Source of the DNA: Rhodospirillales bacterium
GTDB taxonomy: Bacteria; Pseudomonadota; Alphaproteobacteria; Bin95
DNA: 47,465 nt
Reading direction: 5' to 3'
NCBI GenBank assembly: GCA_008081395.1
Contig: VMCJ01000068.1
Coordinates: 1-47,465 of the forward strand
Numbering within the stretch: position 1 is the stretch's first letter; the number at the start of each line of letters is the position of its first letter. Below the pieces are notes generated by a model, which was given only the letters and a program-made list of their open reading frames with translations, had not been told where the DNA came from and did no database searches. The translations under genes and the position numbers were made by a program. This document shows, in pieces, positions 3-38,718 of the stretch.

Positions 3-1262
3 ATGTTGGCAAACAAGCAAAATCAAGAAGAGTTGTCCGAACCCTTCATTTGGCCGGAGGAAGGCATCTCGCGGATTCCTTATCGATTATTTTTCGATCC
101 TGAAATCTACAAATTAGAACAAGAGAAAATTTTCAAAGGGCCCGTCTGGAATTTCCTTTGCATGGAATTCGATGTAGCTGAGCCCGGTGACTTCAAGACA
201 ACTTTTGTCGGTGAAACCCCTGTGATTGTTACCCGCGATCGCAAGGGCACCGTAAATGCTATGGTCAATAGATGCGCCCACAAAGGCGCTCTGGTTTGCT
301 TAAAAGAACGTGGTAACGCCAAAGCACTAACCTGCGTATACCATTCCTGGAATTATGGATTAGACGGCAAACTCATTGGCCTTGCCTTCAAAAACGGTGT
401 TGGCGGCAAGGGCGGCATGCCTGATGACTTCGACATGGCCCAGCATCGGTTACAACCGGTAAGGGTGGAAGTTTTCTGCGGAATGGTTTTCGGAACTTTT
501 TCCGATGAAACGCCATCAGTCGAGGACTTTCTGGGTAAAACGATGGCGGACTTCGTCCGCCGGAACCTTGGACGTAAGCTTAAACCTCTGGGCGTACAGA
601 GCCAAATCATCCACAATAACTGGAAGTTGTACGCCGAGAATCTTCGCGATGCCTATCATGCAACGCTGCTCCACACATTTTACACAACGTTTAAAGTAAA
701 CCGCCTTGATATGGATGGCGGCATTATCATCGCACCAGACAAGTGGCATCACATTTCTTATGCAAAACGGAAAACCTTCAACGAGGACGAAGAATATAAA
801 AAGGCTGGGGTGCACTCTGCTCAATATGAAAATAAGTTGGAGGGGCCTCAGCTCTTAGATACTTGGGATGAGTTCGATGATGGCATCACTCATTCTATTC
901 AAGCGTTTTTTCCAAATCTCTGCATACACTTTACACTAAATTCACTATGCGTGCGGCATTATTTGCCGCGTGGCCAAGATAAAACAGAGCTTTTCTGGAT
1001 CTATGTTGGCTATGAGGATGACACACCCGAAGAGACTGAAAAACGCGTTATGCAGGTGAATCTGACCGGATCTTCTGGCCTTGTTTCAATGGAAGACGGT
1101 TGCATTAACAATTTCGTGCAACGTGGCGCTAGAGGTTCTGAAGATAAGCGCGCCTTTATGGAAATGGGCGGTCGAGATGCCGAGAGCTCCGAAAATTCTC
1201 GCGCAACTGAGGCTGCCATTCGCGGCTTCTGGACCGGTTACCGCAGAATTATGGGCTTCTAA
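3..1262 (+). CDS. Rieske non-heme iron oxygenase, alpha (catalytic) subunit
   Basis: Large subunit of an aromatic ring-hydroxylating dioxygenase, 419 aa, which is normal for the family. The Rieske [2Fe-2S] ligands are visible as C91-x-H93 and C111-x2-H114. The mononuclear iron site follows the usual E-x3-D-x2-H-x4-H pattern (E212, D216, H219, H224), with a likely third iron ligand Asp in the late MEDG stretch. The beta subunit starts two bases after the stop, so this is an alpha/beta oxygenase. No ferredoxin or reductase gene is visible beside it. The substrate cannot be read from sequence; an aromatic acid (benzoate, anthranilate or salicylate type) is plausible because a CoA ligase follows. 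The start is at base 3 of the window, so the ribosome site is not visible and a longer N-terminus cannot be excluded. Confidence 0.9.
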   Translation: MLANKQNQEELSEPFIWPEEGISRIPYRLFFDPEIYKLEQEKIFKGPVWNFLCMEFDVAEPGDFKTTFVGETPVIVTRDRKGTVNAMVNRCAHKGALVCLKERGNAKALTCVYHSWNYGLDGKLIGLAFKNGVGGKGGMPDDFDMAQHRLQPVRVEVFCGMVFGTFSDETPSVEDFLGKTMADFVRRNLGRKLKPLGVQSQIIHNNWKLYAENLRDAYHATLLHTFYTTFKVNRLDMDGGIIIAPDKWHHISYAKRKTFNEDEEYKKAGVHSAQYENKLEGPQLLDTWDEFDDGITHSIQAFFPNLCIHFTLNSLCVRHYLPRGQDKTELFWIYVGYEDDTPEETEKRVMQVNLTGSSGLVSMEDGCINNFVQRGARGSEDKRAFMEMGGRDAESSENSRATEAAIRGFWTGYRRIMGF

Positions 1263-1264
1263 AA

Positions 1265-1735
1265 GTGATAGATGACGAACTTCGTGAGCGGCTGGATGAT
1301 TTTCAAGCTGACTACACTCACACGCTTGATGATGGCGAGCTTGAAGCGTGGCCAGGTTACTTCACCGAGGATGCAATTTATAAAATTGTAACCCGTGAAA
1401 ACCACGAAGCCGGCTTACCCATGGGTATATTTTATTGCAACACCGCAGGTATGATGAGAGATCGAGTATTAGCTCTACGTACTGCGAATATTTTCGAGCC
1501 TCATACCTACTGTCACATCCTATCGCGAGCTCGATATACGAAAGAGAATGGCGAAATCAAAGGACGAACTAATTTTCAGGTAATTCGAACAATGCAAGAT
1601 GGAGAAATGAGCCTCTTCCTTGCAGGGAAATACCTCGATCGGGTGGTAGAAGAAGGGACCGAGCTAAAATTCAAGGAACGCATAGTTGTTCTGGAAAGCC
1701 GTAGGATAGACGTACTCCTCGGAATTCCTGTCTAG
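1265..1735 (+). CDS. Ring-hydroxylating dioxygenase beta subunit
   Basis: Small subunit, 156 aa, with the NTF2/SnoaL-like fold expected of oxygenase beta subunits. It should pack against the preceding alpha subunit to make an alpha3beta3 enzyme. Recognisable family features are the acidic helical start, the WPGYFTEDAIYKI stretch and the conserved arginine-rich middle. The start is GTG, two bases after the alpha stop; no ATG lies early enough to give a full domain, so GTG with translational coupling is the best choice. The function is structural and it carries no catalytic metal ligand. The family call is secure, the substrate is not. Confidence 0.85.
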   Translation: MIDDELRERLDDFQADYTHTLDDGELEAWPGYFTEDAIYKIVTRENHEAGLPMGIFYCNTAGMMRDRVLALRTANIFEPHTYCHILSRARYTKENGEIKGRTNFQVIRTMQDGEMSLFLAGKYLDRVVEEGTELKFKERIVVLESRRIDVLLGIPV

Positions 1736-1778
1736 CAAAAACCCAAAGATAGAAACTAATCGCACGACAACAGGCAGA

Positions 1779-3347
1779 ATGGATCAGTCCTTGGTAAGGC
1801 TAACGGACTTCACAACCTACAGCGATGCTCATTTGCATTTCAAACCTGAACGACTATGGGACCTGTTTGACGGGAATAGAGAATGCTTCAACATTGCTCA
1901 TGAATGTGTTGATAGACATGCAACTTCATCAGAGAGAGTAGCTGTTCGCATAGTTCATGCTGATGGTCGCAATGACGCCCTTACATTTCAGCAATTAGCT
2001 GAGCGTTCTAATCAGTTTGCAAACCTTCTGAAAACAGAAGGGATCAAGTCGGGCGAGCGTGTAGCCATCATGCTAGAGCCAGAGGAAGCCTACTATGTTG
2101 CCCTCTTTGGTTGCATGAAAGCTGGCTGCATTGCAGTCCCTCTATTTACATTATTTGGGGAAGATGGACTGAAGCTTCGGATTGAAGATTGTAAACCAGC
2201 TGCTTTACTCACTAACTCTGAGAAAATGCCGATAGCGAAAGGCTTTTCAAATCTAAAACTATGGGTAACTGGGCCTGAATTTGAAAAGCAAATGGCAGCT
2301 CAAAAAAGTCAATTCTCATGGGAAACCAAGGGAGATGACCTTGCATGTTTTCAGTATACGTCTGGCACAACTCGAGAGCTACCTGATGCAATCCGCCATA
2401 CGCATCGAAGTTTAGTAACCTTAATGTCTGCTGCATTATATGGCACTGGCATTCGGCCCGGTGACCGTTTTTGCTGTCCTTCGTCCATCGCTTGGGGACA
2501 TGGATTATGGCATGGCACTCTGGCACCATTAGCTCTTGGTGTAGAGACAATGTCTTACGCCGGCCGCTTCGATCCCAAACGTCTTGTTCAGGCCATGAAA
2601 GATTTTGGCACAACAAACCTCTCGGCTGCTGCAACTCATTACAGGCTGATGATGAATACGGAGGAACTGGAACTTCAAGATCTTAAGCTAGAAAAACTCA
2701 CCTTCACCGGCGAGCCTATCGATAGTGAGACCGCGAATTTCTGTGAGGTTACTCTCAATCAACATCCTCGAAGCATGTATGGCACCACGGAAGTTGGAGT
2801 AATACTGGTCTCTTACCCTGGCGCAATTGATTTTGAGATGAAACCTGGCTCACTTGGGAAACCACCACCCGGTGTGGATGTCCGTATTCATCGTCCGGAT
2901 GGATCAGAAGCCAACCCAAACGAAACTGGTGAGATAGTTGTCGAGAGGCGAGGCCATTGGTTCCCTACCAAAGATCTTGGGCGCAAGGATAATGATGGTT
3001 ATTTTTTCCATGGCGGTCGAGCAGACGACGTGATCATCTCAGCAGGCTGGACTATGAGCGCTGTTGAAATCGAGGATGCCATCCTTCGACATGATGACGT
3101 ATTGGAAGCTGCTTGTATTGGGGTGCCCGATACCGCACGCGGGCACGTAGTAAAGGCTTTCCTTGTTGCTAAACGCAATAACTTAGATCTAGTCGATGAG
3201 GTGCAAAATATGGTCAGAGAGCGCCTCTCTCAGCACGAATACCCGAGGCTCATTGAATTTGTTGAAGAGCTACCAAAAACCCCGGCCGGCAAGGTCAATC
3301 GTAAGGTTCTCCGAGACCGAGAACGTTCGAAATTAGAAGAGAAATAA
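1779..3347 (+). CDS. AMP-dependent acyl-CoA synthetase (aryl or medium-chain type)
   Basis: ANL-superfamily adenylating enzyme, 522 aa, that would activate a carboxylic acid to its CoA thioester through an acyl-AMP. Motifs seen in order: the phosphate loop YTSGTT near residue 193, the YGTTE adenine-site motif, a KDLGRKDNDGYFFHGGRADD hinge region, and the C-terminal PKTPAGKVNRKVLR with the catalytic Lys. The phosphate loop continues as RELPDAIRH rather than the usual GxPKGV, a local variation. Overall it resembles benzoate-CoA or medium-chain (MACS) ligases. It lies between the oxygenase and the MaoC-like dehydratase, three bases before the latter, so it probably feeds a CoA-dependent degradation route. 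Substrate unknown. Confidence 0.88.
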   Translation: MDQSLVRLTDFTTYSDAHLHFKPERLWDLFDGNRECFNIAHECVDRHATSSERVAVRIVHADGRNDALTFQQLAERSNQFANLLKTEGIKSGERVAIMLEPEEAYYVALFGCMKAGCIAVPLFTLFGEDGLKLRIEDCKPAALLTNSEKMPIAKGFSNLKLWVTGPEFEKQMAAQKSQFSWETKGDDLACFQYTSGTTRELPDAIRHTHRSLVTLMSAALYGTGIRPGDRFCCPSSIAWGHGLWHGTLAPLALGVETMSYAGRFDPKRLVQAMKDFGTTNLSAAATHYRLMMNTEELELQDLKLEKLTFTGEPIDSETANFCEVTLNQHPRSMYGTTEVGVILVSYPGAIDFEMKPGSLGKPPPGVDVRIHRPDGSEANPNETGEIVVERRGHWFPTKDLGRKDNDGYFFHGGRADDVIISAGWTMSAVEIEDAILRHDDVLEAACIGVPDTARGHVVKAFLVAKRNNLDLVDEVQNMVRERLSQHEYPRLIEFVEELPKTPAGKVNRKVLRDRERSKLEEK

Positions 3348-3350
3348 TAC

Positions 3351-4481
3351 ATGAGCGATCTTTTCCCTGTTATCACCGATGATGGCTTAAACGATCTTAA
3401 GCGGCGAATTGGCGTGCCCATTGTTGGCTCCCTAGAGCCATGGTGCCATGAGGCAACCCGAGACAATATCCGTCACTACGCTCATGGAATTGGCGATGAC
3501 AATCCACTTTGGTGCAATCCTGAATACGCTGAAAACAGCCGTTTTGGCGGCATCACAGCGCTCCCTAGTTTTCTGTTCTCAACCAGCAGAATTATATCGG
3601 GGTACGTGGGTGGACTCCCTGGGGTTCATGCGATGTGGGCGGGCGCTGACTGGTCATGGCACGCTCCAATACGCAGAAACGATGAGATTAGAACTGAAGC
3701 CTATCTCAAGGATCTTATTTCGCACGACACCAAGTTTGCCGGCCGTGCGATCCAACAAATCTATCATGTCGATTTCTACAATCAGCGCAATGAGCTGCTG
3801 GCTGAAGCTGATAGTTGGTGTTTTAGGACAGAACGAGACGCAGCGAGAGAACGCGGGGTTAAATACACCGAAGTTCGCGAAAAAGGCGTTCGTCAATATA
3901 CCAAGGAAGAGCTGGAGGAATTCTACAATCTTTACGCAGCAGAAAAGCCTCGTGGGTCAGAGCCGAGATTTTGGGAAGATGTAAATGTTGGTGATGAATT
4001 ACCGACAATGCCCAAAGGCCCTATGACCGTTACTGGCTTTATTGCATACGCTCAGGGATGGGGCGGCCTTTACATTCGCGCTAATCGCATTGCATGGAAA
4101 CAAATAGATGCCCATCCTGGTCTTGGCATCGTAAATAAATTTAACATTCCAGATTGTCCTGAACGTGTGCATTGGGAAGAGGATTTCGCTCGACAAGTTG
4201 GAACACCCGGGGCTTATGACTACGGACCAGAGCGCTGCTCATGGTTAACTCATCACCTAACCGATTGGATGGGAGATCATGGTTTTTTGCGAAAAGCATC
4301 CTGCAAAATTCGCCGTCACAATCCCGAAGGAGATCTCCTGGTCATACGTGGGACTGTAAAAGACAAACGCATTGAGAATGGACGTCATCTCATCGAAATT
4401 TCACAAGAAGCTCGCCAACAAGATAATGAGCTCTCAGTGATTGGAACGGGTTTGGTAGAATTGCCAAGCCGAAATACTTGA
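3351..4481 (+). CDS. MaoC-like acyl dehydratase with FAS1-type N-terminal hot-dog domain
   Basis: Protein of 376 aa with two hot-dog folds: an N-terminal FAS1-dehydratase-like region (about residues 1-150) and a C-terminal MaoC-like region (about 200-376). This two-domain form hydrates or dehydrates acyl-CoA or enoyl-CoA substrates. The N-terminal half carries the W-C-N-P-E-Y pattern after GIGDDNPLW that is common in this group. It starts three bases after the CoA ligase stop, and its TGA overlaps the ATG of the next gene by one base, so the genes are co-translated. It would act on the CoA thioester made by its neighbour. The exact substrate cannot be inferred. Confidence 0.8.
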   Translation: MSDLFPVITDDGLNDLKRRIGVPIVGSLEPWCHEATRDNIRHYAHGIGDDNPLWCNPEYAENSRFGGITALPSFLFSTSRIISGYVGGLPGVHAMWAGADWSWHAPIRRNDEIRTEAYLKDLISHDTKFAGRAIQQIYHVDFYNQRNELLAEADSWCFRTERDAARERGVKYTEVREKGVRQYTKEELEEFYNLYAAEKPRGSEPRFWEDVNVGDELPTMPKGPMTVTGFIAYAQGWGGLYIRANRIAWKQIDAHPGLGIVNKFNIPDCPERVHWEEDFARQVGTPGAYDYGPERCSWLTHHLTDWMGDHGFLRKASCKIRRHNPEGDLLVIRGTVKDKRIENGRHLIEISQEARQQDNELSVIGTGLVELPSRNT

Positions 4482-5529: not shown

Positions 5530-6750
5530 ATGTCGGGATCACTTGGCCCTTTAAACGGTATCCGTGTCGTTGCCTGCTCAACTGCTCAGGCTGGTACAGT
5601 CCCTTACATGCTAATGGCGGATCTTGGTGCAGAAGTAATCAAAATTGAGAGCCCCAATGGAGGAGATCCGTCTAGAAAGGCTGGTGAAATCAAAGGAGAA
5701 AATGGCGAAATTTCGTCTTTCTTCGAAACCAATAACCGCGGCGTGAAAAGTTTAACTCTAAATCTGAAGACACCAGAGGCTCGGGAAATTCTTCATAAAC
5801 TTGTCAAAACAGCAGATATTTTCGGCCAGAATTTCCGTCCTGGAGCAGCGGAACGGAACGGCTTTGGATATGAAGATTTAAAAAAAATTAACCCTAAGCT
5901 TGTTTATGCGTCAGTATCTGCTTACGGCACACGCGGCCCTCACGCCAATCTTCCTGGTACGGACGCAGTGGGACAAGCCCTATCCGGGATCGCCGAAGCT
6001 TACTCCCAACCAGGCGGCTCCATGCGGACTGGCGTTGTGTCAGTAGCTGATGAAACGTGCGCAATGCTCACTTTTGGGGGTGTACTTGCTGCACTAATCA
6101 ATGCTCGTGAAACCGGCATTGGTCAGAAAGTGGAGACATCACTTGCAGGAAGTGCTGTCCGATTGATGGGATGGACACTGACCACAACTATGTGGCGCAA
6201 CAAAAATCCTATAACTGGTGCAAGAATTAACGGCACGCGCAATCGTCCAGGCATAGCGGCTACATTTGATGATATCGATGGACTGCCGTTAGTTTTGCAA
6301 CTAGACGCAAAAGACTGGCAGCCAGCAATGAATGCGCTTGGCTTCTGGGACACACTTGAACAAAGAGGTGCGAGTGATCTTGGACTGGCCCTAGTAGATG
6401 AAAACAAGAAAGATCTGATTTTAGAAACCTTGCGCGGCCTATTTGCAAAAGGCCGACGTGACGACATGCTAATAACTTTGCGGGAAGCAGATATCGTCGC
6501 GGCGCCAGTAAATACGTTATTGGAAGCTTCAAACGACGCAGACAATATTGCCAATGGCTATATTGCTGAAATGGAATACCCTGAAATTGGTGACACTCTC
6601 AAAGTACACGGTACACCATGGCAATTTTCAGAAACACCTCCTGTGTTCGGTCGAGCGCCTAAGCTGGGCGAACACAACCAAGCCATTCTTGAAGAGCTTG
6701 GATATTCTGCCGAGGCTATTCAAAATTTTGTTGATCAGAAAATTATCTAA
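5530..6750 (+). CDS. Family III CoA-transferase (CaiB/BaiF type)
   Basis: Transfers CoA between acyl-CoA and a free acid through an aspartyl-CoA intermediate. Length 406 aa is usual for the family. The N-terminal GIRVVACST and MLADLGAEVIKIE-type segment is diagnostic, and the catalytic Asp is D145 in the PGTDAVGQA motif. ATG at 5530 follows AAAGGA. The dehydrogenase gene begins 13 bases after its stop, so the two are probably cotranscribed. Family members differ widely in substrate (carnitine, formyl, succinyl, bile acids), so only the reaction class is supported. Confidence 0.9.
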   Translation: MSGSLGPLNGIRVVACSTAQAGTVPYMLMADLGAEVIKIESPNGGDPSRKAGEIKGENGEISSFFETNNRGVKSLTLNLKTPEAREILHKLVKTADIFGQNFRPGAAERNGFGYEDLKKINPKLVYASVSAYGTRGPHANLPGTDAVGQALSGIAEAYSQPGGSMRTGVVSVADETCAMLTFGGVLAALINARETGIGQKVETSLAGSAVRLMGWTLTTTMWRNKNPITGARINGTRNRPGIAATFDDIDGLPLVLQLDAKDWQPAMNALGFWDTLEQRGASDLGLALVDENKKDLILETLRGLFAKGRRDDMLITLREADIVAAPVNTLLEASNDADNIANGYIAEMEYPEIGDTLKVHGTPWQFSETPPVFGRAPKLGEHNQAILEELGYSAEAIQNFVDQKII

Positions 6751-6763
6751 AGGAGCCTGACCT

Positions 6764-7657
6764 ATGCGCATTGGATATATTGGCCTTGGAGCAATGGGGC
6801 GCCCCATGGCCATCAATCTTATAGAAGCTGGCCACGATTTAGTTGTTTGTGATACGGACGAAAATAGAACTGCAGTACTAGCACAGCGTGGGGCCGAGGT
6901 TGCCGCTTCACCGAGGGAAACAGCGGACAAATCAGACTACGTACTAGCTTGCCTTCCATCCCTTGCTGCCGCAGAGGATGTTGCTCTGGGCATTGACGGC
7001 GCTGATAAAGGCAATCGTGCCAAAGCATTTATAAATATGGGAACAACTGGCAGCGCCTATTCGCGCGCAGTTGCAGAAAGAATGAAGGCGGCTGGAAAAG
7101 TTTTTCTCGATGCACCTATTTCTGGGGGCCCTCCAGGCGCAGAAGCAGGGACACTTGGCATTATGTGTTCTGGTGACAAAGAAACTTTTGAAGCTCTAAA
7201 ATCCAGCTTAGAAGTCCTGTCAGGAAAACTAGTTTATCTAAACGAAAACCCCGGCGCCGCTCAGACCATGAAATTGGTTAATAATATTATTTCATTCGGA
7301 AACCTATCAGTGGCTCTGGAAGCAATGACTTTAGGGGCAAAGGCGGGCTTAGATCCTGAACAAATGTTGGAAGTCATTAATGCGTCATCAGGCCGGAATA
7401 GTGCAACCGACACCAAAATTCCAAATCACGTTCTTTCAAGAACCTTCGACTACGGCGGCGCCTTATATATCATTGAAAAAGACCTTGAGCTTTGGCGCAG
7501 AGAGGCAGAGGCCTACGAAACTCCAATGTGGCTAGGCACAAACATCCGCACGCTATTCCTGCAGTGCATGGCAGAAGTTGGTCGCGACCAAGATTTGACC
7601 GCCTTAACAACAACCCTTGAAAAGATGGCTGGCGTGCAAATACCTAAAACGAGGTAA
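6764..7657 (+). CDS. Beta-hydroxyacid dehydrogenase (3-hydroxyisobutyrate dehydrogenase family)
   Basis: NAD(P)-dependent oxidoreductase of 297 aa. The N-terminal nucleotide-binding motif is GYIGLGAMGRPMA. The substrate-binding DAPISGGPPGAEAGT follows near residues 116-130, and the catalytic Lys is K170 in QTMKLVNN. These are the standard landmarks of 3-hydroxyisobutyrate, tartronate-semialdehyde and related dehydrogenases. The start ATG follows AAAGGAG, a strong ribosome site. With the CoA-transferase upstream it may complete a short-chain hydroxyacid route, for example linked to valine or methylmalonate metabolism, though that is inference. Confidence 0.88.
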   Translation: MRIGYIGLGAMGRPMAINLIEAGHDLVVCDTDENRTAVLAQRGAEVAASPRETADKSDYVLACLPSLAAAEDVALGIDGADKGNRAKAFINMGTTGSAYSRAVAERMKAAGKVFLDAPISGGPPGAEAGTLGIMCSGDKETFEALKSSLEVLSGKLVYLNENPGAAQTMKLVNNIISFGNLSVALEAMTLGAKAGLDPEQMLEVINASSGRNSATDTKIPNHVLSRTFDYGGALYIIEKDLELWRREAEAYETPMWLGTNIRTLFLQCMAEVGRDQDLTALTTTLEKMAGVQIPKTR

Positions 7658-32228: not shown

Positions 32229-33092
32229 ATGACCTATGCGTCTATCCTAGCACCATTGAGTGATGCAAAAGTTGGAAGTTCCGCAATAGACGCGGCTCTG
32301 CTAATTGCAAAAAAATTCTCAGCCCACCTCGATGTTTTACATGTAACAACTGACCCCAGGCAGATCATTCCCTATGTTGGAGAGGGACTGTCTGGCTCCC
32401 TGGTTGATGAGGTAGTTTCAGCTGCCGCGACAGATAGTGGAAAACGGCAATTAGCTGCACAAGAACTTTTCAACTCCAAAACTAAATCCAGTGGTGTTCC
32501 TGTTGTTGAAATTCCTTCCGCTGGCTTAAGCGTAGCGTGGCGGGAGGACAATGGACGCGATGATGAAAGAGCTGCAGTTTGGGCTCGAACAGCAGATTTA
32601 GCAGTCACCCCAAGACCTCAAGCCAATGCCGAAGCCTCAACAACTGCTATGTTCGAGGCATTGGTTTTTGAAGGTGGCCTACCTGTTGTGCTCGCTCCCC
32701 CTCAAACTCCAACTTCGGTAGGAGAACGGATTCTAATTGGATGGAATGGTGGCGCAGAATGTGCCCGCGCCATTGCTTCAGCAATGCCCTTTTTAGAAAC
32801 CGCCTCAGCTGTAAAAATAGTATCAATGCAAGGCTGGCTTGACGGTGTAGCGAGCCTAAAAAAAGTTCAAGAACGTTTAGCTTGGCGTAATATTTCGTCA
32901 GAATGTGAAGAGCTGCCAGGAGATTCTCCAATCGAGATTGGAGAAAATCTACTCAGTGCGGCGGGTAATTTCGGGGCTGATCTTGTTGTGATGGGCGCCT
33001 ATACACAAAGTAGAATCAGACAAATGATCCTTGGAGGTGTGACACGGCACGCTGTCTCTAATGCACAGTGTTGTCTATTTTTGGAACGTTAA
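32229..33092 (+). CDS. Universal stress protein, tandem-domain type
   Basis: Usp-family protein of 287 aa with two Usp-like halves. The C-terminal half keeps the nucleotide-binding pattern, G-A-Y-T-Q-S-R-I-R-Q-M-I-L-G-G-V-T; the first half is degenerate. Start is ATG at 32229 because GGAGGTG sits four bases before it; a GTG at 32223 lies inside that ribosome site. Its 3-prime end overlaps the convergent MFS gene by 18 bases. General stress role only. Confidence 0.85.
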   Translation: MTYASILAPLSDAKVGSSAIDAALLIAKKFSAHLDVLHVTTDPRQIIPYVGEGLSGSLVDEVVSAAATDSGKRQLAAQELFNSKTKSSGVPVVEIPSAGLSVAWREDNGRDDERAAVWARTADLAVTPRPQANAEASTTAMFEALVFEGGLPVVLAPPQTPTSVGERILIGWNGGAECARAIASAMPFLETASAVKIVSMQGWLDGVASLKKVQERLAWRNISSECEELPGDSPIEIGENLLSAAGNFGADLVVMGAYTQSRIRQMILGGVTRHAVSNAQCCLFLER

Positions 33093-34307
33093 TGACCGTA
33101 GCAACGGCCATGCGTGCCATATAGCCAAGCCAAGACTGAATGACGCTAAAACCGATATGATAGAAATCCCACGCAATTGGTCGCGTAAATCAACTCCAGC
33201 ATCTATTAAATAACCTGTTACCAGAGGGCCTAACGCGGTTGCAAAAACCATAATAGCCGTCGCCATTGATCTAATTGAGCCAAGATATTTGGTTCCATAA
33301 ATCTCAGGCCAGTATGCGCCACCTACTGCGGCTATCACGCCCGTAGAGAGTCCAACGAGCGCCATACCTACCGCTGCCCCATCAAGTCCACTTGCATTTG
33401 CGATCAAAGCATAACCGGCAGCAGCTGGAAGCAACATGACCGGCAAAATTCGGGCCACCCCAAAACGATCTATCGCACCACCAGCCACCCATAGACCAAA
33501 AATATTTGCCATAGTCATTACAGCAAAAAGACTAGCAAAACCTGTGTGGCTCCAGCCTTTGATTTCTGATAGGTGGACCTGTTGAAATGCTAAGGCAGTC
33601 GAAAAAATTGGCTGAGCAAGAAAGCCTGGAAATGTAGCCCAAAAGAGCCAATGTTGAAGCACCTGTTTCCGCTTCCAGTGCTTATTTAGTATGCCAGTGC
33701 CGCCTGGCTCCAAGGCAATTTGTTGTGGCTGACGCTCATGTTTCAACAAAAATATCAAAGGCATCAAAGCTATGAGCGGAAAGAGAGATGCAAATAGCCA
33801 TGCTGAACGCCAACTACTAATAGACATCACCATTACAAAAGCTGCAGGGAATAGGGCCTGGCCGAGCGAGTGCCCAAGAAATACTACCGAAATTGCACGC
33901 CCTCTATTTGCACGGAACCACCTCCCAACAGCCACCGCTGGAATATGCGTCAGCATTCCCTGACCAAAAAAGCGAAGACCACAAATGATAACTGGCAAAA
34001 GCCAAGCAGCGTTAGAAACTGCCATGGCACAGCACATTCCAGCTAGTCCGACTATCACAAAAGCTGCGAGTTTCCGAACTTTCATACGATCTGCCAACGG
34101 TCCAACCATTATCATTATGGCGGCTGAAGCCAACGTACCAATGGTGTACGCATTACCCCAATCACTGTGGGATAGATTAAATTCTGCACGAATTTCGCCG
34201 GCAAATATGGAAATAAAAAATGTTTGGCCAAAAGATGAACTTAAGGTCATCAAAACGCCTGCACCAAGCCAGGTACTATTTGCAGTTAAAAATTTTAAGA
34301 TCGGCAT
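33075..34307 (-). CDS. MFS transporter
   Basis: Major facilitator of 410 aa with 12 predicted helices. The loop between helices 2 and 3 is GPLADRMKVRKLA and the fourth helix begins RFFGQGMLTH, a match to the same monocarboxylate/OFA-like branch as the carrier at 13789. It lies 171 bases downstream of the serine palmitoyltransferase gene on the same strand, behind a hairpin and a promoter candidate, so it is probably a separate unit. Substrate unknown. Confidence 0.82.
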   Translation of the reverse strand: MPILKFLTANSTWLGAGVLMTLSSSFGQTFFISIFAGEIRAEFNLSHSDWGNAYTIGTLASAAIMIMVGPLADRMKVRKLAAFVIVGLAGMCCAMAVSNAAWLLPVIICGLRFFGQGMLTHIPAVAVGRWFRANRGRAISVVFLGHSLGQALFPAAFVMVMSISSWRSAWLFASLFPLIALMPLIFLLKHERQPQQIALEPGGTGILNKHWKRKQVLQHWLFWATFPGFLAQPIFSTALAFQQVHLSEIKGWSHTGFASLFAVMTMANIFGLWVAGGAIDRFGVARILPVMLLPAAAGYALIANASGLDGAAVGMALVGLSTGVIAAVGGAYWPEIYGTKYLGSIRSMATAIMVFATALGPLVTGYLIDAGVDLRDQLRGISIISVLASFSLGLAIWHAWPLLRSLTFQK

Positions 34308-34478: not shown

Positions 34479-35660
34479 CTAGTCCAGTTGGGCCACTTTT
34501 GCAAAGCAGTCGACAATGAAGTCAATCTGCTCTGAAGTATGCGCTGCTGATACCGAGCACCTAAGCAAACTCTTGCTGTTTGGAGTTCCAGGAGGGATAG
34601 CAAGATTCACGTACACACCAGATTGCAGTAGGACGTTCCAAGCCTTTGCTGCGCGCATTGGATCTCCAAGATCAGCTGCAACAATGGGACTTGGGTCGGC
34701 CATCAATTCAAATCCTACCGATTTGAGGCCTGCGTGTAGCCGATGCGCGTTCTCCCAGAGATTCTTGCGTAAGCTAGGTCTGTCGGAGATTATCTTCAAA
34801 GCAGCCCTTGTCACCTCAATACTGGCTGCGGAAGAAGATGCTGTGAACATGTAAGCACGCGCAGCCACTCTAAGCAGATCAAAATCAGGATGATCGGAAA
34901 CAGCAAACCCACCTATCCCTGCAAGGCTTTTTGAAAAAGTCCCAACTAAAAAATCGGCTTCCTTCAGGACGCCACAGTCTTCTGCTACACCAAGCCCTTG
35001 TTTTCCAAAACCACCAAACGAGTGAGCCTCGTCAACCATGAGATATGCTTTATGTCGGTTCTTAACTTCAACAAATTCGTCAATAGGGGCTATATCACCA
35101 AACATGCTGTATAGGCCTTCGACAATTACGAGTTTGTTGGAATGGTTTGAATCTGAGCGACTTAAACGACGATCAAGAGAAGATGGATCGTTGTGGGCAA
35201 AGCGGATAATTTCAGCTCCCGAAAGCTGACAGGCGTCGTAAATGCTAGCGTGACAATCAGCATCAATGAATACCTGATCGCCCTTTTGGGCAAGGCCGGC
35301 CACGACAGATAAATTTGCTTGGTAGCCAGTAGTGAACACAAGCGCAGATGACATGCCGTAGTGAGCTGCCATTTCTTGCTCTAGCAAACGATGGGGACCA
35401 AAAGTCCCATTAGCTATGCGGGAACCAGTTGTTCCGGTGCCAAATTTTTCTAAAGCATTCTTTGCCGCTGAAATCACGGCTTCGTCAAACGTTAAACCAA
35501 GATAATTATTTGTTCCCGCCAGCACGATCTCTCGATCACCTATAAGACCAATCGTAGGTGATAATATATTGTCAAAAGCAACGCCGAATGGGTCACCACC
35601 ACCAGCTGTTAAAGCAGCGTATGCCTCTTTTAGAGGCTGAAATTTGTCGAATAGATCCAT
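34479..35660 (-). CDS. spt: Serine palmitoyltransferase (alpha-oxoamine synthase family)
   Basis: PLP enzyme of 393 aa that condenses serine with an acyl thioester to 3-ketosphinganine, the first step of sphingolipid synthesis. Catalytic landmarks are H137 (stacks on PLP), D210 and H213 in VDEAHSFGG, and the Schiff-base K244 in GTFSKSLAG. The D210 to K244 spacing of 34 residues equals that in the Sphingomonas enzyme. Sequence alone could also suggest 8-amino-7-oxononanoate or 2-amino-3-ketobutyrate ligase activity, but the adjacent ACP, CerR-like reductase and acyl-AMP ligase decide for sphingolipids. It starts six bases after the ACP stop. Confidence 0.88.
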   Translation of the reverse strand: MDLFDKFQPLKEAYAALTAGGGDPFGVAFDNILSPTIGLIGDREIVLAGTNNYLGLTFDEAVISAAKNALEKFGTGTTGSRIANGTFGPHRLLEQEMAAHYGMSSALVFTTGYQANLSVVAGLAQKGDQVFIDADCHASIYDACQLSGAEIIRFAHNDPSSLDRRLSRSDSNHSNKLVIVEGLYSMFGDIAPIDEFVEVKNRHKAYLMVDEAHSFGGFGKQGLGVAEDCGVLKEADFLVGTFSKSLAGIGGFAVSDHPDFDLLRVAARAYMFTASSSAASIEVTRAALKIISDRPSLRKNLWENAHRLHAGLKSVGFELMADPSPIVAADLGDPMRAAKAWNVLLQSGVYVNLAIPPGTPNSKSLLRCSVSAAHTSEQIDFIVDCFAKVAQLD

Positions 35661-35666
35661 TTCGGT

Positions 35667-35915
35667 TCAATCTACGCGAGCTTTTGCAACAACTTGGGCG
35701 AATTGTCCTACGGTACTAACTTCGCTGAGTAGATTAATAGGAATTGAAATATCGTACTTGTCCTCTACCATTAAGACAAAATCCATAACTGCTACTGAAT
35801 CAACATTAAGATCAGCGTTAAAATCAGTATCTGCCGTAATTTCAATGCCAGCTTTATTGAGTCCAGAGAGCATCTCGCTTATTTCAGAAATTAGCTTCTG
35901 ATCAACTTCACTCAT
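35667..35915 (-). CDS. Acyl carrier protein dedicated to sphingolipid synthesis
   Basis: ACP of 82 aa. The phosphopantetheine attachment Ser is S40 in LNVDSVAVMDF, and the protein is acidic and helical as expected. GGGAG stands nine bases before the ATG. In the Caulobacter ceramide cluster an ACP occupies the same place, loaded by the acyl-ACP synthetase and used by serine palmitoyltransferase; this copy should do the same. It is distinct in context from the fatty-acid synthesis AcpP, which is not in the window. Confidence 0.9.
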   Translation of the reverse strand: MSEVDQKLISEISEMLSGLNKAGIEITADTDFNADLNVDSVAVMDFVLMVEDKYDISIPINLLSEVSTVGQFAQVVAKARVD

Positions 35916-35971
35916 TAACTAAACTCCCAAAACTTAGTCGGTTGCTAAATCACAAACCGCTGACAACGTCA

Positions 35972-36916
35972 CTAGTGAGCTCTATACCACTCAAGCGTTT
36001 TTCTGAAACCCATCTCTAATGAAGTATGGGGCTTCCAGTCGGGTAAACGCCGCGCCGGATTGACGCGCCAATCACCAAACATAATTTCGCGTGCTTTATC
36101 CCGTGTCAAAAAAGGCGTTGATAAACCGGTCACAGCAGCAAAGGACCCTAAAGTCCCTGCTATCGTCAAAATAGTGTTTGGTATGGATAACCGACTTACT
36201 CGACCTGTCGATATGCCTTTTGCCGCGCTAACTACTTCATTCCAAGTATATCCACCAGAACCATCATCTATTTCGAACACTGGACCAATTGAACTAGCAG
36301 CATCTAGAGTTGCCAGTGCAGCAGAAGCGGCATCCTGTACATAGATCATAGAAAATTTTGCATCACTTGGGCCAATGCAAGGGACTATTCCTTTAGCTAG
36401 AGCGCGGAAGAATGGTCTTGTTGCTAAGTCTGCGGGACCATAAATTGCTGGTGGGCGTAAAATAGCAAAAGACCGGCCAGCAAGCACTTTCGCAATTTCC
36501 GCTTCCGCTTCCGCTTTACTCTCAGCGTAAGGTGAAATTTGAGGAAGGTTAGCAGCAAGTGATGAAATCATAACGAATGGTAAATCTGGGTTTGCCAGTG
36601 CTCGCCACGCCCGAGCAGCTTTGGCTGAGCCATCTCTGTTTACTGAAAGAAAAGTGGATCTATTCTTCGCACGAACTACACCTGCGTTATGAACAAATGC
36701 ATCTGTTCCATCGGCAAGCCGCATTAGCGCATCTTGGTCGGCAAGATTTCCAACTATAAATTCGTCGAAATTAGGGGAAAGGGACTGGCTAGGGTCACGG
36801 ACGAAAGCCCGCACACGCCAACCATGGGCCTTTGCTTCACTTGCTATTTGCCCCCCAAGAAAACCCGTAGCGCCTGTCAGGGCTAAAAGAGGGGCTTTTG
36901 GTAGCGAACTAGCCAG
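35972..36916 (-). CDS. cerR: NAD(P)-dependent epimerase-type reductase, CerR-like, with a probable CTG start
   Basis: Extended-SDR protein, 314 aa if begun at CTG (36916). The dinucleotide motif TGATGFLGG is encoded upstream of the first ordinary start (GTG at 36814), so a GTG start would remove it. Between the in-frame stop (36931-36929) and that GTG no ATG, GTG or TTG exists; CTG at 36916 gives a proper first beta strand (PLLALTG). Later come the acceptor motif HNAGVV and the catalytic Tyr-Lys in YAESK. In Caulobacter, CerR reduces 3-oxo-ceramide. It begins five bases after the ligase stop. Confidence 0.8.
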   Translation of the reverse strand: MASSLPKAPLLALTGATGFLGGQIASEAKAHGWRVRAFVRDPSQSLSPNFDEFIVGNLADQDALMRLADGTDAFVHNAGVVRAKNRSTFLSVNRDGSAKAARAWRALANPDLPFVMISSLAANLPQISPYAESKAEAEAEIAKVLAGRSFAILRPPAIYGPADLATRPFFRALAKGIVPCIGPSDAKFSMIYVQDAASAALATLDAASSIGPVFEIDDGSGGYTWNEVVSAAKGISTGRVSRLSIPNTILTIAGTLGSFAAVTGLSTPFLTRDKAREIMFGDWRVNPARRLPDWKPHTSLEMGFRKTLEWYRAH

Positions 36917-36921
36917 CTTTT

Positions 36922-38709
36922 TTAATCTCTAGCCATTGCTGATATGGTAGCGGAAGAGGCAGTTCGGAGCGCAACACTTGTGCTTTGTGGTGAATAATGC
37001 CCTGCAAGATAATTAGCTTTTGCTGCCGTGCGGCTAAGCTTTCCTGAAGAAGTCATCGGCAAACTTCTAGGTTGCGCAAGAACAACCTTACAATCAGCGC
37101 CCGCGATTAACCGCGTCTGAGCAGCAATTTCACGCTCAAGTTGTTCACGAGTGTCTTTGTCAGTCGCACGACATTGCACGACAACAATCACTTCCTCGGC
37201 GCCATCTTGATCTTCTACGGAGAATGCTGCCGCATCCCCTCGCCTTAAGCCCTCAAGACCTTCAACCGCCCACTCAATATCTTGCGGCCATATGTTACGG
37301 CCATTGTAAATTATTAAGTCCTTGCCTCTACCAGTTATCACGAGGTTACCATTCACGGTGTAACCCATGTCACCCGTGTCTAACCAACCGGTTTTGGAAA
37401 GCACTCTTTTTGTAGCAGCAGGATCCCCAAAATAACCATTCATAACACTGGGACCGCGCACGTACACTCTACCAATCAATCGATCAGCTAAGTCGTTGCC
37501 CTCATTATCACGAATTGCCAACTCATGGTTCGGCAATATTTTCCCGCAAAACGCAAAAGGCCTAACTTCTAATGCGTCATTTGCAGGCTGCCCTGGCCTT
37601 GCACGCCCCGTAAGGGAGTAATCGCGTTTAACAATGGCATCGACTTCAATACCTGTGTCGATTTCTGAAAAAGTGACCGCCAGCGTCGACTCTGCCAGCC
37701 CATAACTCGCAAGAAATGCCTTTGAATTAAAGCCACTGGGTTCAAAGGTTTCAGCAAAACGCGCCAATATGTCAGCGCGAACCATTTCTGCGCCGATCCC
37801 TGCAACCCGCCAAGCAGATAAATCAAATTCATCCGAACGAGCTCGAGCCGCTCGCCGCAGGCAAATGTCATATCCAAAAGTAGGACTAAATGAAATTGTG
37901 CCCTTATTTTCTGATAAGACCTTGAGCCAAATCAGAGGGCGGCGAGCAAAATCAGGAGTAGCGATAAAGTCAGTGGACATCTGCGCATACGTTGGGCTCA
38001 AGCAACAACCCACCAGTCCCATATCATGGTAAAGTGGGAGCCATGACACGCAACGATCCCCATGACGCGCCTTGACGCCATGATTGAGAATTCCTGAGCA
38101 ATTGGCCGTCACTGATTTGTGCGATGCAGCTATTCCGTGAGGAAAACGAGTACTTCCGGAGGAGTACTGAATGTAACAAATATCATCTTCAGTTATTCGA
38201 GGAAGAGGCGTTTTACTTTCAGGCAATCTGTAAAAGTCTGCATGAGTGCCTACCATGGGGGTCTGCAACCCAGCGGAAGCTTGACGTAAGTAGTCAACCA
38301 ACTCTGCGGATGATACTGCCGCAGCTGCTCGAGCGCTCTGCATCATCCGAGACAGCTGAGCAATATAGGCTTCTTTTCCACCAAGATGCATCGGAAAGGG
38401 CAGCGGCACCGGAACTAACCCTGCGTACTGACATCCATAAAAGAAAACAAAAAAATCTGGGGTGGACTCGGCTATCATTGCCACCCGGTCACCCTTCTTT
38501 AATCCTGCGCCAACCAGACGTTGGGCTAAATCCAAGGAGCGTTCACGCAACTGACCAAAAGTCAAAGTGCCTGATAAGTCACCACGTGGAGTGTAGAAGC
38601 TAAAGCCTGTTTCCCCAGCCGCTGCATAGTCCAGGGCTTCCAACACAGTCCTAAAACCATCCGTTTTGAATGGCAGATTTCTGTTCTTATTTGGCAAGGA
38701 AGCTATCAT
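36922..38709 (-). CDS. Fatty acyl-AMP ligase / acyl-ACP synthetase
   Basis: Adenylating enzyme of about 595 aa, longer than usual acyl-CoA synthetases and typical of FAAL proteins. Motifs: FTFGQLRERS-like N-terminus, PLPFPMHLGG, phosphate loop IQYSSGSTRFPHGI, LPLYHDMGLVG, and WLDTGDMGY with GRGKDLIIYNGRNIWPQDIE. These are classical FAAL features. In Caulobacter the equivalent (AasR) loads fatty acid onto the dedicated ACP for serine palmitoyltransferase. Start ATG at 38709 is chosen; TTG at 38718 is also in frame with GGGGTGA near it. First gene of the minus-strand operon, and its expression probably drives the other three. Confidence 0.87.
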   Translation of the reverse strand: MIASLPNKNRNLPFKTDGFRTVLEALDYAAAGETGFSFYTPRGDLSGTLTFGQLRERSLDLAQRLVGAGLKKGDRVAMIAESTPDFFVFFYGCQYAGLVPVPLPFPMHLGGKEAYIAQLSRMMQSARAAAAVSSAELVDYLRQASAGLQTPMVGTHADFYRLPESKTPLPRITEDDICYIQYSSGSTRFPHGIAASHKSVTANCSGILNHGVKARHGDRCVSWLPLYHDMGLVGCCLSPTYAQMSTDFIATPDFARRPLIWLKVLSENKGTISFSPTFGYDICLRRAARARSDEFDLSAWRVAGIGAEMVRADILARFAETFEPSGFNSKAFLASYGLAESTLAVTFSEIDTGIEVDAIVKRDYSLTGRARPGQPANDALEVRPFAFCGKILPNHELAIRDNEGNDLADRLIGRVYVRGPSVMNGYFGDPAATKRVLSKTGWLDTGDMGYTVNGNLVITGRGKDLIIYNGRNIWPQDIEWAVEGLEGLRRGDAAAFSVEDQDGAEEVIVVVQCRATDKDTREQLEREIAAQTRLIAGADCKVVLAQPRSLPMTSSGKLSRTAAKANYLAGHYSPQSTSVALRTASSATISAMARD

Positions 38710-38718
38710 AGCTTTCAA

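Follow-up and report, generated by a model that had tools for sequence, protein, structure and literature searches.

The ceramide genes of Caulobacter crescentus are CC_1165-CC_1162 and CC_1154, the latter encoding the ceramide synthase (bCerS), and its CPG genes are CC_1161-CC_1158, CC_1153 and CC_1152. In the bacterial pathway acylation precedes reduction, and the reductase CerR is periplasmic (PMC11087976). CerK and CpgC constitute the set for production of CPG but not CPG2, CpgA being needed for the second phosphoglycerate; Zymomonas, for instance, is predicted to be a producer of CPG but not of CPG2 (PMC11324152). The reaction catalyzed by CpgC is unknown (PMC12275187). All five ceramide genes are found together in only two of seven strains compared, C. 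crescentus and E. coli BL21, and YghO has been named as the E. coli orthologue of bCerS (PMC9386255).

Sphingolipid producers devoid of LPS are already known, since in the Sphingomonadaceae and Erythrobacteraceae glycosphingolipids are found and LPS is missing (PMC7956469). C. crescentus can also lose lipid A where an anionic sphingolipid supports growth (PMC10964400, PMC12275187). How sphingolipids travel to the outer membrane in bacteria has yet to be worked out, with no transporter identified (PMC11324152, PMC11087976); the C. crescentus LptC2, LptF2 and LptG2 proteins have been put forward as sphingolipid transporters, as a proposal only (PMC11324152). In a literature search whose coverage took in few subscription journals, no paper was found on the loss of LpxC in sphingolipid producers other than sphingomonads, and none on the lineage studied here.

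The stretch of DNA analyzed (the window) is a complete contig of 47,465 bases, C7 of its genome. Its minus strand carries, in this order, genes for a fatty acyl-AMP/acyl-ACP ligase (aasR, 36922-38709, with a TTG at 38718 as an alternative possible start), a CerR-like NAD-dependent reductase (cerR, 35972-36916), a dedicated acyl carrier protein (acpR, 35667-35915), and a serine palmitoyltransferase (SPT; spt, 34479-35660). An earlier note on this DNA had described these genes as one minus-strand operon with the Caulobacter order, and both the identities and the order were confirmed. The ligase scored 787.5 bits against NF006624, a fatty acyl-AMP ligase subfamily model with a cut-off of 600; the carrier protein matches PF00550 and has its phosphopantetheine serine in a DSV motif; the reductase contains GATGFLG and YxxxK motifs, and its homologues hold the same position in related loci. 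As in the Caulobacter-type ceramide pathway, acpR immediately precedes spt, an adjacency kept in nearly all related loci, and aasR is present in the genome. The short gaps that separate the ligase from the reductase (5 nt), the reductase from the carrier protein (56 nt) and the latter from SPT (6 nt) indicate that the four genes are likely to form one operon. Scans of the region for sigma-70 promoters and terminators gave scores no better than those of shuffled sequences. The GC content of the operon (0.476) is close to that of the remaining contig (0.470), so composition shows no trace of recent transfer. Downstream of spt, on the same strand and after a gap of 171 nt, there is a gene for an MFS transporter (33075-34307, PF07690). 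An MFS gene adjoins spt in two of the four other genomes of the genus (G010 and G012) and is not there in G013; it is no more than a candidate operon member.

No ATG, GTG or TTG is present upstream of the Rossmann (NAD) motif of the reductase. A CTG at 36916 (within 36914-36924), situated 5 nt past the ligase stop codon, restores the full Rossmann domain with an intact NAD motif, and the Epimerase score is 63.0 bits from this codon versus 36.6 from a downstream GTG. In the nearest relative (G010) a CTG lies at the same distance from the NAD motif, and in G011 and G013 an ATG is found slightly upstream. The conserved CTG at 36916 is thus the likely start codon, which gene-calling programs would overlook.

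The same four-gene order is found in E. coli B (BL21; ECD_02850-02854 plus yghO), where it was taken from an E. coli entry that contains this cluster. In the Sphingomonadaceae, biosynthesis genes are scattered (PMC11324152, PMC7956469) and aasR is far from acpR-spt (PMC9386255), whereas in the window aasR is inside the operon. The sphingomonads also belong to another lineage. The window SPT reaches 586.9 bits with the NF047599 SPT equivalog model (cut-off 500) but stays below the cut-off of NF047603, the second SPT model for proteobacteria. This protein conserves the PLP lysine K244 as well as H137, D210, H213 and R367, and all its top PDB matches are bacterial SPTs. It is 49-52% identical to the SPTs of the E. 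coli, Pseudomonas and Roseomonas clusters, and identity among members of the genus is 72-83%.

SPT, BioF, Kbl and 5-aminolevulinate synthase constitute one fold family whose members cross-match, and the enzyme might thus be a BioF/Kbl-type oxoamine synthase that yields biotin or an acyl-amine product, with no sphingolipid being made. This is very improbable. While the SPT equivalog model is matched well above its cut-off, the bioF model gives 327 bits against a cut-off of 426, and the Kbl and 5-aminolevulinate synthase models are also below theirs. Moreover, SPT and bCerS co-occur perfectly across the order (see below), and no BioB exceeds its cut-off anywhere in the genome, where just one further protein strongly resembles BioF, namely 5-aminolevulinate synthase, encoded on contig C67. 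A biotin-operon role for the oxoamine synthase, which the earlier note had considered, is contradicted by these results. With neither BioB nor BioF above cut-off, biotin auxotrophy is a possibility for this organism. Elsewhere in the window (3-4481 and 5530-7657) there are genes for a Rieske-type dioxygenase with its small subunit, a CoA ligase, a CoA-transferase and a 3-hydroxyisobutyrate dehydrogenase-like protein, which suggests degradation of aromatic or organic acids.

Neither bCerS nor any headgroup gene is present within the 47,465 bases of the window. Since the window is a whole contig, this absence says little, and the earlier claim that the cluster has no ceramide synthase holds for the window but not for the genome. 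A search of the whole draft assembly with E. coli YghO found a single bCerS gene, on contig C14 (22268-23410; 39% identity, E=2.2e-79), whose product can be aligned over its full length to both YghO and a Roseomonas protein (41% identity to the latter). The suggestion that the lineage places these genes elsewhere was therefore correct, and the use of a different acyltransferase is unsupported. An alternative candidate, a PF04339 FemAB_like protein encoded on contig C12 (L001:1489-2652), matches its model strongly yet does not resemble YghO in sequence, and no Pfam family is matched by YghO; for these reasons it was rejected. This protein, whose gene adjoins a RidA-like gene, is likely to be a false lead for annotators.

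On C14, bCerS is followed by a gene for an NTP transferase that is 38% identical to the product of the gene after bCerS in Roseomonas and resembles CC_1153 by position, with weak similarity to CofC. Divergently from bCerS lie genes for LptF2, LptG2, a CerK-like, DAGK-domain lipid kinase, and a CpgC-like protein. The latter two, beside LptG2, were recognized through their homologues in the Roseomonas cluster (30% and 36% identity, respectively). By homology, the Caulobacter-type pathway is complete through CpgC and spread over two loci. The organization shares with C. crescentus the ligase-reductase-ACP-SPT order, bCerS, CerK, CpgC, a CC_1153-like NTP transferase and LptF2/LptG2; it differs in being divided into two loci, in lacking CpgA, in having one LptF/LptG pair and in the absence of LpxC and LpxB. 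In E. coli B, whose bCerS is 38-39% identical, this gene is divergent and adjacent to the others. The plasmid cluster of Roseomonas mucosa and clusters from Geminicoccaceae and Rhodospirillales contain all the same genes, contiguous there but split here.

In Roseomonas-type clusters these genes are accompanied by ones for a CpgA-like CDP-alcohol transferase and for a fatty acid hydroxylase. The search for CpgA-C that the earlier note had proposed was successful for the CerK-like (CpgB) and CpgC-like genes but not for CpgA: the only CDP-alcohol phosphatidyltransferase of the genome was identified as PgsA, so the CPG2 pathway of Caulobacter is not encoded as such. The resulting gene set is like that of Zymomonas, and we infer that the headgroup would be CPG-like rather than CPG2. 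The end product could instead be unlike that of Caulobacter, either a derivative of ceramide phosphate whose headgroup differs or a glycosphingolipid that enzymes encoded elsewhere synthesize. The missing CpgA is in line with this possibility, as are the lack of a known activity for CpgC (PMC12275187) and the uronic-acid glycosphingolipids borne by LPS-lacking sphingomonads (PMC7956469). However, the CerK-like and CpgC-like genes, which together represent the CPG set (PMC11324152), are retained at the bCerS locus in the window's genome, G012 and G013. A different end product is thus the less probable outcome, although it deserves serious consideration, and it concerns the headgroup alone, being compatible with a replacement of lipid A. 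A further difference may affect the sphingolipid itself. In the four other genomes of the genus, a gene for a PF04116 fatty acid hydroxylase (sterol desaturase-like) adjoins bCerS and separates it from LptF2 (L110:356-1135 in G010; also L104, L105 and L106/L108/L112), but it is missing in the window's genome (L008:1826-2268), where there is no remnant of it between LptF2 and bCerS and no PF04116 protein genome-wide. The sphingolipid of this organism may therefore be devoid of a hydroxyl group that those of its relatives possess.

The order was sampled with 14 genomes, five from the genus of the window and nine others. SPT is present in 5/5 genomes of the genus and in 0/9 of the rest, and bCerS is found in the same five genomes and in none of the other nine. 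In all five, SPT and bCerS are located on different contigs; therefore, the split is common to the whole genus. The neighbors of bCerS could be read out to CerK and CpgC in the window's genome, G012 and G013, the contigs of G010 and G011 ending early. Of the named loci that retain 10 kb of flank to either side, 41 in all, 36 have bCerS inside these flanks. A distant bCerS is thus a minority arrangement, yet one that is already documented.

The operon is ordinary for bacterial sphingolipid synthesis; the unusual part is the absence of LpxC and LpxB throughout the genus. LpxC (PF03331) is found in 9/9 sister genomes of the order and in none of the five of the genus, and LpxB (PF02684) in 8/9 versus 0/5, the exception among the sisters being a fragmented draft. 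Matches in the sisters had E < 1e-75, and the five genomes gave no match whatever. Caulobacter itself matches both models. Although all genomes of the genus are drafts (83-99% complete), five separate absences make a chance loss through gaps unlikely. The genus is one clade, and the contrast between LpxC and SPT hence represents one evolutionary event and not five.

Each genome of the genus contains at most one LptF/LptG pair, located at the bCerS/CerK locus wherever the assembly shows its surroundings. In a maximum likelihood tree, LptF and LptG from the genus cluster with the LptF2/LptG2 proteins that sphingolipid loci of other Alphaproteobacteria encode (moderate support, 89/99 and 83/90, with 94/80 on the LptG split). 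They are separate from the sisters' canonical pair, whose clades are supported by 100/99 and 100/98. By this placement, the remaining pair of the genus is of the sphingolipid-linked type and the canonical pair is missing. In one sister genome, lptF-lptG lies beside pepA, surA, pdxA and ksgA, and in another lpxC is next to bamD and recN, upstream of bamD (gene names read from translations). E. coli B, unlike the genus of the window, keeps lipid A and its own LptF/LptG.

Judged by two enzymes, LpxC and LpxB, the lipid A pathway is absent from the genus. The sphingolipid pathway could instead be an addition to lipid A, provided that divergent or non-homologous enzymes escaped both models and that LptF2/LptG2 carry both lipids. 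That the lipid A enzymes examined are just these two leaves some room for this view, as does the coexistence of LpxC with sphingolipid genes in other genomes. For instance, among 50 named SPT-containing genomes, drawn from a set picked by similarity to the window SPT, 29 have LpxC and 21 gave no match, indicating that the sphingolipid pathway does not force the loss of lipid A. However, in 9/9 and 8/9 sister genomes the two models detect their targets without difficulty, and the canonical LptF/LptG pair is likewise missing from the genus, so that a mere addition to lipid A appears rather unlikely.

Isolates with SPT and no detected LpxC include Reyranella massiliensis, R. aquatilis, Arboricoccus pini and Aquibaculum arenosum, to which about a dozen genomes of the Reyranella group and two Geminicoccaceae are added; two of the 21, a Kuenenia-labelled bin and Nitrosospira NpAV, have to be taken with caution. 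In the Reyranella group, SPT, a metallophosphoesterase and bCerS are found in a row (L061, L064, L070, L073, L077, L079, L089, L090 and L097), and no LpxC was detected in any searched genome of the group with this row. The LpxC-minus state requires about seven changes on the SPT tree, which is a gene tree and not a species tree. A general link between SPT and loss of LpxC across the Alphaproteobacteria is not established, the frequency of LpxC in SPT-negative genomes being covered for the order of the window alone.

The simplest explanation of the absence of LpxC and LpxB, together with a sole LptF/LptG pair of the sphingolipid type, is that the genus has no lipid A and a phosphosphingolipid instead. 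We consider it quite probable that the operon and the C14 locus direct the synthesis of a Caulobacter-type phosphosphingolipid, exported via LptF2/LptG2 and most likely replacing lipid A in the genus. According to the homology of each protein to characterized enzymes, AasR would load a fatty acid onto AcpR, SPT would condense the acyl group with serine to give 3-oxo-sphinganine, the bCerS encoded on C14 would N-acylate the latter, and CerR would reduce the product. The CerK-like kinase would then phosphorylate the ceramide and the CpgC-like enzyme would modify it, after which LptF2/LptG2 would take the product for transport to the outer membrane. There it would stand in place of lipid A, since the genus retains neither LpxC nor LpxB and, of LptF/LptG, just the sphingolipid-linked pair.

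LPS-free producers being known from the Sphingomonadaceae, the novelty of the present case lies in its separate lineage, in a clear contrast with the sister group and in the retention of LptF/LptG of the sphingolipid type only. A bolder view, for and against which the balance seems to us even, is that the genus is a natural lipid A knockout in which a sphingolipid cluster, of horizontal or ancient origin, took over the outer leaflet, with LptF2/LptG2 as the sole envelope lipid extractor. If so, LptF2/LptG2 would serve exclusively to export sphingolipids, and such a replacement would have taken place several times in the Alphaproteobacteria, as SPT without detectable LpxC is found in Reyranella, Geminicoccaceae, Aquibaculum and the genus of the window. 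A lineage devoid of LpxC and LpxB, with one LptF/LptG pair of the sphingolipid-cluster type, is good comparative evidence for the carriage of sphingolipids by these permeases. The cultured bacteria with SPT and without LpxC (R. massiliensis, R. aquatilis, A. pini and A. arenosum) make the idea of replacement testable. For the question of what makes lipid A essential in most cases, a genus that seems to lack it and nine relatives of the same order that keep it offer a close comparison.
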